In this document: piece by piece, positions 56,298-62,341 of the stretch
Layout: every line of letters starts with the position of its first letter
How positions within the stretch are numbered: position 1 is the first letter of the stretch
Assembly (NCBI RefSeq): GCF_003122215.1
Contig: NZ_QEYD01000003.1
Location: 310,001 to 374,000, forward strand
Reading direction: 5' to 3'
Source: Pararhodobacter marinus
Lineage (GTDB): Bacteria; Pseudomonadota; Alphaproteobacteria; Rhodobacterales; Rhodobacteraceae
DNA: 64,000 nt
Program-made: the position numbers and the translations under genes
Notes under the pieces: generated by a model
Seen by the model: only the letters and a program-made list of their open reading frames with translations
What the model was told of the DNA's origin: nothing
The model's database searches: none

Positions 56298-57167
56298 ATG
56301 CATCTGGACTACCCGGACTGGCTGCGCGACGCGGTGCCCACGGACAGCACCTTTCGCACAAAGCTGTCCGAGCTGCGGCGCGTCGAAGCCGCCTATGGCG
56401 ATCTCGACGCGCTTTACGACGAAGACGAACTCGCCGCGCTGATCGACACGCTGAGCTATTCCAGCGAGGATGCGCGCCGGGGCCGGCCCAATCCCTCGCG
56501 GTTGGAAATCACCGGCGATCTGCGCAACAACCTGGCGTCCTACAAAAGCGCGGTCGCGAAATATCAGCGTTTCCGGCAGGATATGGAAAGCGAAGCCGCG
56601 CATGCCACGCTGCGCCGCATGGCACCGGACGCTTCCGATGAACCAGGCGAACCGCCCGGACGGATTCTGTCGATGGAATCCGATCTGCAGCGCGCGCTGC
56701 GTGACGCGCTGGGCGATCTGGAGCCGGGGCTGGAAGCGGTGGATGAAGGGGGCGAGAAAATCGTCCCCTCGGGCCGGATCGACATACTGGCCCGCGACGC
56801 GGCGGGCGGGCTGGTGGTGATCGAACTGAAAGCCGTCTGCGCAAGGCGCGAGGTGCTGGGCCAGATCGCGGGCTACATGGCCGATATCGAAGCCGAAACC
56901 GGCGCCCGGCCGCGCGGCCTGATCATCGCGCCCGATTTTCATCCCGCTACCGTCTCGGGCGCACGGATGATCGACGGGCTGGATCTGAAGCGCTACGCGA
57001 TCCGCTTCGGCTTCAGCGACATGAGACGCGACGCCGCCGGGCCGGGCGATTCCGGCTGCGCCACCATCGCGCGTGCCCCACCCGAAACGCAGGAAGCCCC
57101 CGCCGTGGCGGGGGCTTCCGGGATGCGACAGGCGCCGGACGTAGCGCTTACATCGGCGGCAGGCTGA
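56298..57167 (+). CDS. NucS/EndoMS-like PD-(D/E)XK nuclease-domain protein
   Basis: A 289-residue protein. The central part (about 125-240) matches the catalytic domain of the mismatch endonuclease NucS: E128, D162 in GRIDILARD, E176-x-K178 in VVIELKA and Q189 in LGQIAGYM. The NucS DNA-binding N-domain is missing; instead there is a helical region with NNLASYKSAVAKYQRF, often found beside restriction-type nucleases. The last ~45 residues are encoded across a terminator hairpin and overlap the convergent gene by 20 bp, suggesting a lost stop codon. Target DNA structure unknown. Confidence 0.8.
   Translation: MHLDYPDWLRDAVPTDSTFRTKLSELRRVEAAYGDLDALYDEDELAALIDTLSYSSEDARRGRPNPSRLEITGDLRNNLASYKSAVAKYQRFRQDMESEAAHATLRRMAPDASDEPGEPPGRILSMESDLQRALRDALGDLEPGLEAVDEGGEKIVPSGRIDILARDAAGGLVVIELKAVCARREVLGQIAGYMADIEAETGARPRGLIIAPDFHPATVSGARMIDGLDLKRYAIRFGFSDMRRDAAGPGDSGCATIARAPPETQEAPAVAGASGMRQAPDVALTSAAG
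57092..57119 (-). terminator. strong hairpin inside the 3' end of the NucS-like gene
   Basis: GGAAGCCCCCGCC is followed by GTGGCGGGGGCTTCC, giving an 11-bp or longer GC-rich stem. It lies about 30 bp past the stop of the leftward phytase-like gene, so it is its probable terminator, yet the rightward reading frame passes through it. Confidence 0.65.
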
Positions 57168-59292
57168 AGAACATCGTCTCGCCCGAATGGTCATCAACGC
57201 CGTCATTGTCGGTGGCGATCCACATCGTGCCGTCCTGCGTGATGGCAAGGCTTTCGACCTTGTCCAGCACATAGCCCCCCGTCGCGGTCAGATACGGCAG
57301 CAGGTCGATGACGACTTCCGGCGTCACCACCGGCAGATCGCCCCCCAGCGGTGCGGGCTGCAGATCGGCCAGCGCCACGCGGGTGATCTGCTTCACCGAG
57401 GCGAGATCGCCCAGCTGGTTGTCGCGCTCGACCAGATACAGATAGCCGTCATGCGCCGTGATCTCGGACAGGCCGACCCAGCCCCGCTCATGCGCGGCCA
57501 GCGGGTAATGCACCGCGCCCCATTCGCCGGTGGCGGGCGTATAGGCGACCAGCTTCACCATCCCCTCGGGATCGTCGGCCCATTCGCGCTGCACGGCCAT
57601 CCACAGCGTGCCGTCAACCATCGTTACGCCCTCGAAGCCGAAGCGGCGTTCTTGCGACAGCAGGGCCTCGGGCAACGTCACCTCTTCGGTGATCGCGCCT
57701 GACGCGTCGACATGGTAAAGCGCATGCGGGATGTCGCGGTCGGTGCGGCCCTCATTGGCGATCCAGAAACCGCCCTGCCCGTCCAGCGTGATGCCCTCCA
57801 TATCCATCTGCGCGGCGGGCGCGCCATCGCGGGCGACGCGAATCGCGCGGATGATGCGGGCGGGCTGCTGCGACGGGTCGATCACGAAGATCGTCGGCTG
57901 CGCGCCATAGGCCGAATCGTTCACGGCATAGAGCATCCCGTCCTCGCCCGCGACGAGCCCCGAGATCGCGCCCCAGCCGGTCAGCGCCTCCATTCCCGCC
58001 GAGGTGAGCTGCGGATAGGCGGCGGGCGCGTCCTGCCATTCGTAGATAATCACATGCGAGCGCGCGGCACCATCGGCGCCCAGATCGGTCTCGTTCGCGG
58101 TGACGAAAAGCCCGCGCGACGGGATCGGCAGCAACCCTTCCGGCCCGATGCCCGAGGGCAGAAGCTGGCGCAGGACAGGCGCCGACGGATCGGTCGCGTC
58201 ATAGACGCCGATCACAGAGCCGCGCTCGGAGCCCACGAACAGCATCGGCGTGCCGTCGAAGGTGGCGGCGACGATGGATTCCAGCTCGGTCCCCTTCTTG
58301 CCCGACCGGCCTTCGGGATAATGGCCGATCTCGACGATCGCATGTTCCAGCGAGGCGCCGCTGTCATGGACCAGCGTGCCGTCCTGCGCGAAGATCGACC
58401 AGGTGCGGCTGCCGCCGTTCCAGTCGCCTTCATTGGCGATGGCGACATGGTCCGCGTCGAGCCAGGTGATCGCGTCGGGCTCGCGCAGGCGGGTGACGGT
58501 CTGATCGAAGACCAGCTGGCCGTCCCTGGCCGTGTCGACGCCCTCGGCCGTCGCCTCACCCGCTGAGAAGTGGCTCAGCACGGTGCCGGCGCGGTCGAGG
58601 ATGACGATATGGTTGTTTTCCTGAAGCGTGAGCGCGATCTCGCCCTCGGCATTGATGGCGACGAATTCGGGCTCGGGATCGTCGGACGCGATGTCGGCCA
58701 GGCCCGTGACATCGGCGCGGATCATCCCGGCGCAATCGATTGCACCCTCGGTCATCGGCAGGATCGCCACGAAGCCCGCCGGCATCTGCGGCAGCGCGCC
58801 CTCGTTCAGGTCCTCGTCGCGTTCGTTCTCGATGGCGACGGCAAGGAAGCTCTGATCCGGGGCGATGGCGATGGAATCGGGCTGGCCGCCCAGATCGCAG
58901 CTTTCGGTGACGCTGCGGGTCGCCACGTCGAGCGTCAGAAGCGCCCCGGCGGTCTCGACGTAATCCGCCGAGCGATTGACGGCCACGAAAGCGCTCGCCC
59001 CGGCGATCGCGACCGAGGTCGGCTCGCCCTCGAGCGTCAGCGCGCCGAGCGGCGCGGGGGTGGCGGGATCGGTGATGTCGATGAAGCCGACCGCGCCCGC
59101 CGGGCTGTCGGTATAGACCAGCGTCATCCCGTCTTCGGTAGCGGCGATGATCTCGGACGAGGTTTCCTCGGCCCCGGGCAGGTTCTGCGCGACGGGGAAC
59201 GAGGCGATGCGGTTGAAATGCGCGTCTTGCGCGATGGCGGGCGTGGCGCAGATCAGCGCAAGCGCGCTGGTGGAAAGCAGGCGGGCGGACAT
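57148..59292 (-). CDS. secreted esterase-like phytase-family protein with choice-of-anchor beta-propeller
   Basis: A 714-residue secreted protein with a Sec signal (cleaved after PAIAQ near 22). Residues about 25-380 look like a beta-propeller of the choice-of-anchor I type (IIAATEDGMTLVYTDSPAGAVGFID...), and about 400-714 resemble the phytase-like esterase domain (MDMEGITLDGQGGFWIANEGR, VESLAITQDGTMWIATDNDG, with acidic calcium-site residues). It probably hydrolyses organic phosphoesters outside the inner membrane. A Pho-box-like array lies upstream. Confidence 0.85.
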   Translation of the reverse strand: MSARLLSTSALALICATPAIAQDAHFNRIASFPVAQNLPGAEETSSEIIAATEDGMTLVYTDSPAGAVGFIDITDPATPAPLGALTLEGEPTSVAIAGASAFVAVNRSADYVETAGALLTLDVATRSVTESCDLGGQPDSIAIAPDQSFLAVAIENERDEDLNEGALPQMPAGFVAILPMTEGAIDCAGMIRADVTGLADIASDDPEPEFVAINAEGEIALTLQENNHIVILDRAGTVLSHFSAGEATAEGVDTARDGQLVFDQTVTRLREPDAITWLDADHVAIANEGDWNGGSRTWSIFAQDGTLVHDSGASLEHAIVEIGHYPEGRSGKKGTELESIVAATFDGTPMLFVGSERGSVIGVYDATDPSAPVLRQLLPSGIGPEGLLPIPSRGLFVTANETDLGADGAARSHVIIYEWQDAPAAYPQLTSAGMEALTGWGAISGLVAGEDGMLYAVNDSAYGAQPTIFVIDPSQQPARIIRAIRVARDGAPAAQMDMEGITLDGQGGFWIANEGRTDRDIPHALYHVDASGAITEEVTLPEALLSQERRFGFEGVTMVDGTLWMAVQREWADDPEGMVKLVAYTPATGEWGAVHYPLAAHERGWVGLSEITAHDGYLYLVERDNQLGDLASVKQITRVALADLQPAPLGGDLPVVTPEVVIDLLPYLTATGGYVLDKVESLAITQDGTMWIATDNDGVDDHSGETMFFSLPPM

Positions 59293-59346
59293 GGGGAGCT
59301 CCGATTGACGACTTGTTACCTGGTCCGCGCGGGCTTACGTCGCTTT

Positions 59347-59387
59347 CGTCACGGCCGCGTCACGGTTCGGTGACGGAACGATGACGG
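59347..59387 (-). promoter_or_regulatory. Pho-box-like array of four 11-bp units
   Basis: Units start at 59347, 59358, 59369 and 59380: CGTCACGG, CGTCACGG, GGTGACGG and GATGACGG, each 11 bp apart. On the minus strand the first two units read CCGTCATC-GTT-CCGTCACC, very close to the PhoB direct repeat (CTGTCAT, 4 bp, CTGTCAC). They end 74 nt upstream of the phytase-like start codon. Confidence 0.7.
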
Positions 59388-59397
59388 GGAGAGGGTG

Positions 59398-59670
59398 ATG
59401 AGCATTCGTCTGACGGGGAAACTGATCTGCGCCACCGAGGCGCAGGCGGCCATCGTGCGGGAATACCTGCCCGAGCACGTGCGGCTGACACTGGCCGAGC
59501 CCGGCTGCCTGGAATTCGAGGTCAGCCATGCGGGTGCGATGACCTGGGACGTGACCGAGCGTTTCACCGACCGCGCGGCTTTCGAGGCGCATCAGGCGCG
59601 GACCGGGGCCAGCGCCTGGGGCCAGGCGACGGCAGGGATCGCAAGGGAATACGAGGTCCGCGAGGGCTGA
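59398..59670 (+). CDS. small ABM-family (antibiotic biosynthesis monooxygenase-like) protein
   Basis: A 90-residue ferredoxin-fold protein of the ABM/quinol monooxygenase type: ICATEAQAAIVREYLPEHV, EPGCLEFEVSHAG, WDVTERFTDRAAFEAHQAR. Such proteins dimerise and oxidise quinols or act without an evident cofactor; the substrate here is unknown. The ATG at 59398 has GAGAGG upstream. It is divergent from the phytase-like gene and could share the Pho-box region. Confidence 0.85.
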   Translation: MSIRLTGKLICATEAQAAIVREYLPEHVRLTLAEPGCLEFEVSHAGAMTWDVTERFTDRAAFEAHQARTGASAWGQATAGIAREYEVREG

Positions 59671-59868
59671 CGCTAACCCGGTGTTAATATACCTGTGGTC
59701 TGATACGCCCGGGAGCGCTGTATTAGCCGATCCGGCGCAGGTTTCGCCCTCGCCCGGCATGCCGCTGGCATGCAGGTCTTGCGCGACCGGGCGCGCCGCC
59801 TTCGGCGGCGCGCGGGGCTGGCTACAGACGGAGAGGCCGCGCGCCCGCAGCCCCCGTCTTGTCCCCGT
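59671..59868. other. intergenic region with two perfect inverted repeats
   Basis: No gene seen in 198 bp. GCATGCC-GCT-GGCATGC (59757-59773) and GCGCGCCGCC-TTC-GGCGGCGCGC (59791-59813) are perfect hairpins lying downstream of hypE. Neither has a T-tract on the hyp strand, so they may protect the 3' end or aid Rho-dependent termination. Confidence 0.5.
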
Positions 59869-60906
59869 TCAGCAGATCCGCGGCAGCTGTTCGCCCACCA
59901 GCATGTCGACGATCCGGCTGCCGCCAAACGCCGTGCGCAGGGTGACGGGGACCGCCCCCGCTTCGGTCGCGCGACCGATGATGCAGGCGCCCTGCCCGGC
60001 CTTGGTCGCGCGCATTGCGGCGAGCGCGGCCTCGGCCTGATCGGCGGGGACGAAGGTGACGAGCGTGCCCTCGTTGGCAAGGTAAAGCGGGTCGAGGCCC
60101 AGGATCTCGCACATGCCTTTCACCTCGGGGCGCAGCGGCAGCGCGGTTTCGTCGAGCTCGACCGACACGCCCGCTGCCTCGGCCAGCTCGTTGAGGGTCG
60201 AGGCCAGTCCGCCGCGCGTCGCGTCGCGCGCGCACCGCGTATCGGGGGCAGCCCGAAGCACGGCTTCCATCAATGCGCCCAGCGACTGGCAATCGGATTG
60301 CAGATCCGCCGAAAGCATCATGTCGCCGCGCGCGGCCAGGATCGTGGCGCCGTGGTCGCCCAGCACACCGTTCACAAGGGCCACATCGCCGGGCCGGATC
60401 CGCCGCGCATCAAGGTCACGCCCCGGCGCGATCACACCGATCCCCGAGGTGGTGATATAGACCTGATCGCAGGCGCCGCGATTGACGACCTTGGTGTCGC
60501 CGGTGACGATGCGCACGCCCGCCACCGCTGCCTCGGCCGCCATCGAGGCGACGAGCCGGCGCAGCAGGGCGATCTCGCAGCCCTCTTCGATGATGAAACT
60601 GGCCGACAGCCAGAGCGGCCTTGCGCCACCCACGGCAAGGTCGTTCACCGTGCCGCAGACGGCGAGCTTGCCGATATCGCCGCCGGGAAACTCGACCGGG
60701 GTGACGACGAAACTGTCGGTGGTAAAGGCCAGCCGCGCGCCGGGTTCCTGAAGCGCCGCCTCGGTCAGGCGGGCCTGATCCTCCATGCCCGGGGGGGCGA
60801 AGACGCTGAGGAAAACGCTCTCGATCAACTCGCGCATCGCCTTGCCGCCCCCGCCATGGGCGAGCGTGACGCGCTCTTCGCGCAGGGTCATGACTGTATC
60901 CTTCAT
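59869..60906 (-). CDS. hypE: hydrogenase maturation protein HypE
   Basis: HypE dehydrates its carbamoylated C-terminal cysteine to a thiocyanate, the source of cyanide ligands for the [NiFe] site. The 345-residue protein has the N-terminal LAHGGGGKAM, ATP-binding FTTDSFVVTP and VNDLAVGGARPLWLS, ARDATRGGLA, and ends in PRIC with the essential terminal cysteine. Its ATG at 60906 overlaps the hypD stop (ATGA). Last visible gene of the leftward hyp operon. Confidence 0.97.
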   Translation of the reverse strand: MKDTVMTLREERVTLAHGGGGKAMRELIESVFLSVFAPPGMEDQARLTEAALQEPGARLAFTTDSFVVTPVEFPGGDIGKLAVCGTVNDLAVGGARPLWLSASFIIEEGCEIALLRRLVASMAAEAAVAGVRIVTGDTKVVNRGACDQVYITTSGIGVIAPGRDLDARRIRPGDVALVNGVLGDHGATILAARGDMMLSADLQSDCQSLGALMEAVLRAAPDTRCARDATRGGLASTLNELAEAAGVSVELDETALPLRPEVKGMCEILGLDPLYLANEGTLVTFVPADQAEAALAAMRATKAGQGACIIGRATEAGAVPVTLRTAFGGSRIVDMLVGEQLPRIC

Positions 60907-62057
60907 TGCGCCGCGACCTCCGGCGTCACCCGTGGCAGCACCCGCGCGCCCCCATAGGTCCAATAGGCCGCGCAAGCCCCTTCGGACGAGACCATGAGCG
61001 CACCGAGCGGCGTCTCGGGCTTGCAGCCCAGACCGAATTGCGGGCAGGCGGTCGGCTTGATGCGCCCTGTCATCACCGCCGAACAGGCACAGCCCTCGGG
61101 CTCGTCATCGGGCGAGGCGGCGTAACCGATGCCGAATTTCTCTTCGGCGTCGAAAGCGAGATACTTCTCGCGGATCCGCAGGCCCGAGGCGTCGATCTCT
61201 CCAAGCCCGCGCCAGGCGAAACGCGGGCGGCGTTCATAGACATCGGCGATGGCGGCAAGGCTGACGGGGTTGCCGTGCTCGGGCACGACGCGGGCATACT
61301 GGTTTTCCACCTCGGCCCGTCCGTCGCGGATCTGTTCCAGCACCATCAGCACCGATTGCAACAGGTCGATCGGCTCGAAGCCGGCGACGACGATCGGCTT
61401 GCCGTAATCGCGCGCGATGAAATCGTAAGCATGGACACCAATCACCATGGACACATGGCCCGGCCCGACGAACCCGTCGAGCACCATATGCGGATCGTCC
61501 AGCAGCGCCCTGATAGGCTCGGGCACGGTGATATGGTTGCAGAATACGCTGAAATTCGTCAGCACCTCGCGCGCAGCCTGCTGGATCGACAACGCGGTCG
61601 ACGGAGTTGTCGTCTCGAAACCCAGGCCGAAGAACACGACCTCGCGCTCCGGATTGCGCCGGGCCAGTTCCAGCGCGTCGAGCGGCGAATAGACCATGCG
61701 GATATCGGCGCCGTCGGCCTTGGCCTGCAAGAGCGATTTGCGCGTGCCGGGCACCCGCATCGCGTCGCCGAACGTGGTAAAGATCACGCCCTCGCGCTCG
61801 GCGATGGTGACGCAATCGTCGACTCGCGACATCGGCAGCACGCAGACCGGACAGCCGGGGCCGTGGATGAACTCGATCCCCTCATGCACCAGCTTGTCCA
61901 GCCCGTACCGGAAGATCGCATGCGTGTGGCCGCCGCAGACCTCCATGATATGCACGGGTCGTGCCTTCTTTGCGCCGATCTGGTCGGCGACGCGGCCGAT
62001 GGCGGAAAGCAACGCTTTCGCGGCTTTCGGATCGCGGAACTCTTCGACGTATCTCAT
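60903..62057 (-). CDS. hypD: hydrogenase maturation protein HypD
   Basis: HypD is a [4Fe-4S] scaffold that, with HypC, holds Fe(CN)2CO before insertion. The 384-residue protein has the conserved cysteine motifs MEVCGGHTHAI, HGPGCPVCVLP, GFETTTPSTA, and the C-terminal cluster ligands in CACSAVMTGRIKPTACPQFG and LGCKPETPLG. The start overlaps the hypC stop (ATGA). Normal length. Confidence 0.97.
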   Translation of the reverse strand: MRYVEEFRDPKAAKALLSAIGRVADQIGAKKARPVHIMEVCGGHTHAIFRYGLDKLVHEGIEFIHGPGCPVCVLPMSRVDDCVTIAEREGVIFTTFGDAMRVPGTRKSLLQAKADGADIRMVYSPLDALELARRNPEREVVFFGLGFETTTPSTALSIQQAAREVLTNFSVFCNHITVPEPIRALLDDPHMVLDGFVGPGHVSMVIGVHAYDFIARDYGKPIVVAGFEPIDLLQSVLMVLEQIRDGRAEVENQYARVVPEHGNPVSLAAIADVYERRPRFAWRGLGEIDASGLRIREKYLAFDAEEKFGIGYAASPDDEPEGCACSAVMTGRIKPTACPQFGLGCKPETPLGALMVSSEGACAAYWTYGGARVLPRVTPEVAAQ

Positions 62058-62341
62058 TGTTCCTCCAGCGCTTTCGCACCCTCCGCCATCGCGTCCAGGG
62101 TTTCCTGCGCCTCGCCCAGCCCGCGCAGGGCCTCCAGCGTGTCGGCGGCTTCCTGCGCGTCGATCACCGCCATCGCAAAGCCCACATGGATGAGCACCCA
62201 TTCGCCCACCAGCGCCTCGAGCGGCCGGTCGGCCACCGGCGCCAGCGAGACCTCGCGCCGCACGCCCGAGACATCCGCCATCGCCATCTGGCGCGCCGGG
62301 TCGGTGATGGCCACGATCTGGCCGGGAATTCCCAGGCACAT
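62054..62341 (-). CDS. hypC: hydrogenase maturation chaperone HypC
   Basis: A 95-residue chaperone starting MCLGIPGQIV; after Met removal C2 binds the iron centre, with H52 (GEWVLIHVGFAM) as the second ligand. It binds HypD and the hydrogenase large-subunit precursor. The C-terminus is an acidic helix typical of HupF/HypC proteins. It starts two bases after the hupR stop. Confidence 0.96.
   Translation of the reverse strand: MCLGIPGQIVAITDPARQMAMADVSGVRREVSLAPVADRPLEALVGEWVLIHVGFAMAVIDAQEAADTLEALRGLGEAQETLDAMAEGAKALEEQ

Follow-up and report, generated by a model that had tools for sequence, protein, structure and literature searches.

A probable four-unit Pho box upstream of a phytase-like gene in Pararhodobacter marinus

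The intergenic array and its neighbours

We analysed a 64,000-nucleotide stretch of the Pararhodobacter marinus genome (the window), in which the DNA between a phytase-like gene and a divergently oriented gene for an ABM-domain protein carries four consecutive 11-bp units (Table 1). On the minus strand, from 59387 to 59344, these read CCGTCATCGTT CCGTCACCGAA CCGTGACGCGG CCGTGACGAAA and are followed by GCGACGTAAGC. The 7-base cores succeed one another at a step of exactly 11 bp, confirming the four phased units that had been described here from the sequence-only reading. Elsewhere in the window, a gene at 56298-57167 that encodes a NucS C-terminal-like domain (PF01939 at 30.6 bits) lies directly downstream of a guaA-like gene (identified by eye), and hydrogenase maturation genes occupy 59869-62341, comprising hypE (TIGR02124, over the cut-off) and adjoining hypD- and hypC-like ORFs (by eye).

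Table 1. Positions of the array units, the predicted promoter element and the flanking genes within the window
Feature	Position	Strand	Basis or remark
Predicted Pho-box unit 1, CCGTCATCGTT	59377..59387	-	Sequence; within the only phased-pattern match of the window; core CCGTCAT, 59387-59381
Predicted Pho-box unit 2, CCGTCACCGAA	59366..59376	-	Sequence; phased-pattern match; core CCGTCAC, 59376-59370
Predicted Pho-box unit 3, CCGTGACGCGG	59355..59365	-	Sequence; phased pattern; core CCGTGAC, 59365-59359; NCGTGAC type, like unit 3 of the P. marinus pstS array (L055)
Predicted Pho-box unit 4, CCGTGACGAAA	59344..59354	-	Sequence; phased pattern; core CCGTGAC, 59354-59348; last unit ahead of the predicted promoter; R1 match 59339-59375
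-10-like element, GTAAGC	59333..59338	-	TA 17-18 nt past the unit 4 start; same distance in the P. marinus pstS promoter (GTACCC)
Phytase-like gene, 714 aa, predicted secreted	57148..59292	-	Signal-like start; N-terminal part resembling choice-of-anchor I; PF13449 in the C-terminal part
Divergent ABM-domain gene, starting at GTG 59395 or ATG 59398	59395..59670	+	PF03992, E = 3.7e-9; not a likely target

The pattern CNGTCAY-N4-CNGTCAY has four matches genome-wide, among them units 1 and 2, and a control pattern has none. A phased three-unit pattern, CCGTSAY(N4) with ≤2 mismatches, has the array as its only place in the window (two overlapping matches) and was found in 0 of 100 dinucleotide shuffles of the window. 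The strict E. coli consensus (CTGTCAT-N4-CTGTCAT) differs from the first pair at three bases in all; at three mismatches it has four matches in the window, a number reached by 22 of 100 shuffles and thus not significant, so that this consensus alone is insufficient to establish the array. The single mismatch per half-site previously counted against the PhoB consensus holds if either C or T is accepted as the last base and fails against the strict form, given the pair total of three. Judged from the DNA sequence, the array is established by its phasing, a lineage matrix and conservation, and not by the E. coli consensus.

Comparison with pstS promoters

To obtain this lineage matrix, we searched for PF12849 in 22 genomes (P. 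marinus and 21 relatives that have the phytase-like gene) and read the DNA 5′ of each best match. An 11-bp phased array was present upstream in 22 of 22 genomes, some units being degenerate. The resulting matrix has 45 columns and was built from 21 pstS promoters of P. marinus and its relatives; one promoter (L035), whose locus was clipped by a contig end, was left out, and its box was matched as a held-out case (E = 7.5e-7) by a separate model of pstS boxes (R1; 39 columns, using sequence only and likewise built without L035). Promoters of phnC loci were considered as additional training material and dropped, boxes lying within the fetched flanks in only 3 of 17 loci.

A scan with a PhoB matrix from alphaproteobacterial promoters had been proposed as a check, and the array passes it. 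With the pstS matrix, whose alignment to the array is shifted by one unit from the register that we prefer, the site scored 27.3 bits, the best of 7302 other positions (local background) scored 6.5 and 0 of 1000 Markov shuffles reached the score of the site. With matrices built from other genera only (18.1 versus 8.7) or from the same genus only (19.5 versus 6.4), the score of the site was also reached by 0 of 1000 shuffles.

The closest comparison is the pstS promoter of P. marinus itself, CTGTTACAGAA GTGTCATGCAG ACGTGACAGAA GCGTCATGCAA followed by GTACCC, ahead of a pstS gene that is succeeded by pstC, pstA and pstB. Both arrays have four units in 11-bp phase with an NCGTGAC third unit, and both have a TA 17-18 nt past the start of the last unit, a distance also found at E. 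coli phoA. Phased CNGTNAY units at 11 bp are common to the studied site and the pstS boxes of the genome and family, with four units in the genus. In contrast to the pstS box, the studied site has GC-richer units and spacers, opens with CCGTCAT rather than CTGTTAC and has a lower R1 score (13.4 versus 27.8 bits).

The R1 model has a single match in the window (E = 0.0053) and four sites at E ≤ 10 over the 4.49-Mb genome: the pstS box, a site at a PHO4-family transporter gene (13.8 bits), the studied site and a site at metallophosphoesterase and GT21 glycosyltransferase genes (12.3 bits). Taken by itself, the studied site is weak genome-wide (E = 0.37), and the PHO4 site scores slightly higher. 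The latter (CTGTCACAAAAGTGTCAC, G000:C2:78213-78234) lies between a NUDIX gene and the transporter gene and is oriented away from the transporter; a similar site occurs at the PHO4 gene in two other genomes (G009 and G016). Possibly this is a low-affinity transporter repressed by PhoB, for which the orientation of the site would be suitable. The fourth site (G000:C11:109651-109673), at a locus separate from the studied array, is ahead of the metallophosphoesterase gene, which is followed by the GT21 gene. From domain type and gene order only, this is likely to be a PlcP/Agt-like pair of lipid-remodelling genes under phosphate control; PMC4796936 describes plcP-glycosyltransferase lipid-remodelling genes as carrying Pho boxes, and the P. 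marinus R1 match concerns a metallophosphoesterase-glycosyltransferase pair.

Across the 21 relatives, R1 gave 63 matches at E ≤ 2, of which 21 were pstS sites, one in each genome, and 42 lay elsewhere. We inspected nine of these 42 loci: six were at genes for PhoA, PhoX (two), PPK2 with a divergent solute-binding protein, or PHO4 (two), five of the six having been checked with Pfam and the remaining one (L154) by near identity to another (L153), and in three a phosphate link was not clear. Because six of the nine adjoin PhoA, PhoX, PPK2 or PHO4 genes, the pstS matrix behaves as a PhoB matrix, and a working PhoB matrix for this bacterial group is a by-product of the analysis.

Conservation and predicted regulation

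Of 147 genomes searched, 35 matched the phytase-like protein; 27 loci with full-length or near full-length orthologues were taken (the match at L027 covers residues 3-535), and eight genomes with short or distant matches were omitted. In 25 of the 27 loci, the 260 bp ahead of the gene contain a matrix score higher than that of any position tested elsewhere in the locus (naive binomial 3e-36, which is overstated because the loci are related). The local test was not passed at L003, which has one higher position elsewhere, and at L026; L019 and L025 passed it, yet with negative scores. With R1 genome-wide at E ≤ 2, the box before the phytase-like gene was recovered in only 3 of the 21 relatives (G070, G051 and G037; three of the 42 further matches) and in 0 of 4 congeners, the gene being present in 21 of 21. 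In the other 18 relatives the box falls short of this threshold, which speaks against the site being strong there. Among the five genus members, conservation is seen at the unit-core columns and at the TA, and most of the leader varies. Beyond the genus, the box accompanies the phytase-like gene despite a differing upstream flank.

We consider it very probable that the array is a four-unit Pho box through which PhoB drives the phytase-like gene under phosphate scarcity. The earlier proposal of a Pho box before this gene gains support from the pstS matrix, the architecture shared with the pstS promoter of P. marinus and the family-wide conservation with the gene, and a genuine Pho box is well supported by the DNA sequence, the layout of the units, the genome context and conservation; it would be an ordinary example of known PhoB sites. 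When phosphate is scarce, phosphorylated PhoB, whose gene is elsewhere in the genome (TIGR02154 equivalog, 335 bits against a cut-off of 296), would occupy the minus-strand direct repeats of 11 bp in head-to-tail fashion, stand in for a -35 element and bring RNA polymerase to GTAAGC, a weak -10-like element. Transcription would then start at about 59326, leading to expression of the exported phytase-like protein, which may act outside the cytoplasm to free phosphate from its organic forms. A TA at -10 distance toward the phytase-like gene, its position relative to a transcription start being predicted, is present in five of five genus members including P. marinus, and scans of 59200-59900 for sigma-70 consensus promoters and terminators found none.

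The same DNA might instead be read in both directions: units 1 and 2 would serve the phytase-like gene and units 3 and 4, as CGTCAC repeats of the plus strand, the ABM gene, a role for two of the units that had been suggested from the sequence alone. Alternatively, PhoB bound there would repress ABM. We regard this as unlikely. Although units 3 and 4 do present GTCAC half-sites on the plus strand, no TA lies at the required distance toward ABM, and the NCGTGAC type of unit also occurs inside the P. marinus pstS array. The array ends 8-11 bp from the ABM start, and bound PhoB would therefore overlap any ABM promoter. Matrix scores toward ABM exceed those of the other orientation in one genome (G009; 19.1 versus 10.8) and are lower in another (G016; 13.2 versus 19.6), whereas a congener (G015) has an ABM orthologue at 76% identity and lacks both a match to the phytase-like protein and a box before the ABM gene (scores of -23.4 and -21.8). 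The phytase-like gene, in contrast, keeps its box in other genera in which the upstream flank differs. Matches to the ABM protein were found in 20 of 60 genomes searched. Service of the ABM gene by the other two units is thus not supported, and regulation of ABM by the array is unlikely. An improbable variant is a lineage-specific Pho-box grammar in the genus, in which NCGTGAC units could also be read on the opposite strand and PhoB may bind some of them reversed, so that a single array could activate the phytase-like gene and block ABM.

Binding of the array by another response regulator of the OmpR/PhoB family that uses 11-bp direct repeats is very unlikely: several PhoB-like regulators are encoded in the genome (the PhoB model matches 37 times, only once over the cut-off), yet the matrix derives from pstS promoters only and its other matches are phosphate genes. 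That the array is a functionless chance repeat in GC-rich intergenic DNA is extremely improbable and already contradicted by conservation, since the weak match to the strict E. coli consensus, equalled in the shuffles, stands against a phased pattern that the shuffles never produced, unit cores better conserved than the leader and the best local matrix score lying upstream of the gene at nearly all loci.

The phytase-like protein and its parallels

Regulation by PhoB would place an uncharacterised secreted phytase-like protein in the predicted phosphate-starvation regulon, with organic phosphate as a hint to its substrate. The PF13449 match of the protein is strong (200.7 bits, cut-off 27.6, E = 6e-59), the likeness of its N-terminal part to choice-of-anchor I (NF038117) is below the cut-off and its N terminus appears signal-like by eye; phosphatase activity is presumed. 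The AlphaFold2 model (mean pLDDT 85) is dominated by beta strands. A comparison with PDB sequences gave no match at E ≤ 0.01, and Foldseek with the model returned only multi-domain proteins at low TM-scores, with no functional clue beyond a repeated beta-strand architecture.

A literature search found no paper linking 'esterase-like activity of phytase' with phosphate starvation, or, among the papers listed, 'phytase-like' with the Pho regulon, a result confined to these terms that carries no wider claim of an unpublished link. Induction of phytase-like genes by phosphate limitation, or their co-expression with it, is described for the cyanobacterium Nodularia (nsp7010; PMC9846622), a diatom (PtPhos2; PMC7283521) and S. 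meliloti (SMc00620; PMC8829014). As these sources present them, each is a phytase-type protein whose gene is tied to the phosphate-starvation response, as we propose for the studied gene; they belong to other lineages, have other domain arrangements and are likened to the P. marinus protein by description. In Caulobacter, a phytase is listed among the genes of the PhoB regulon (PMC11208175).
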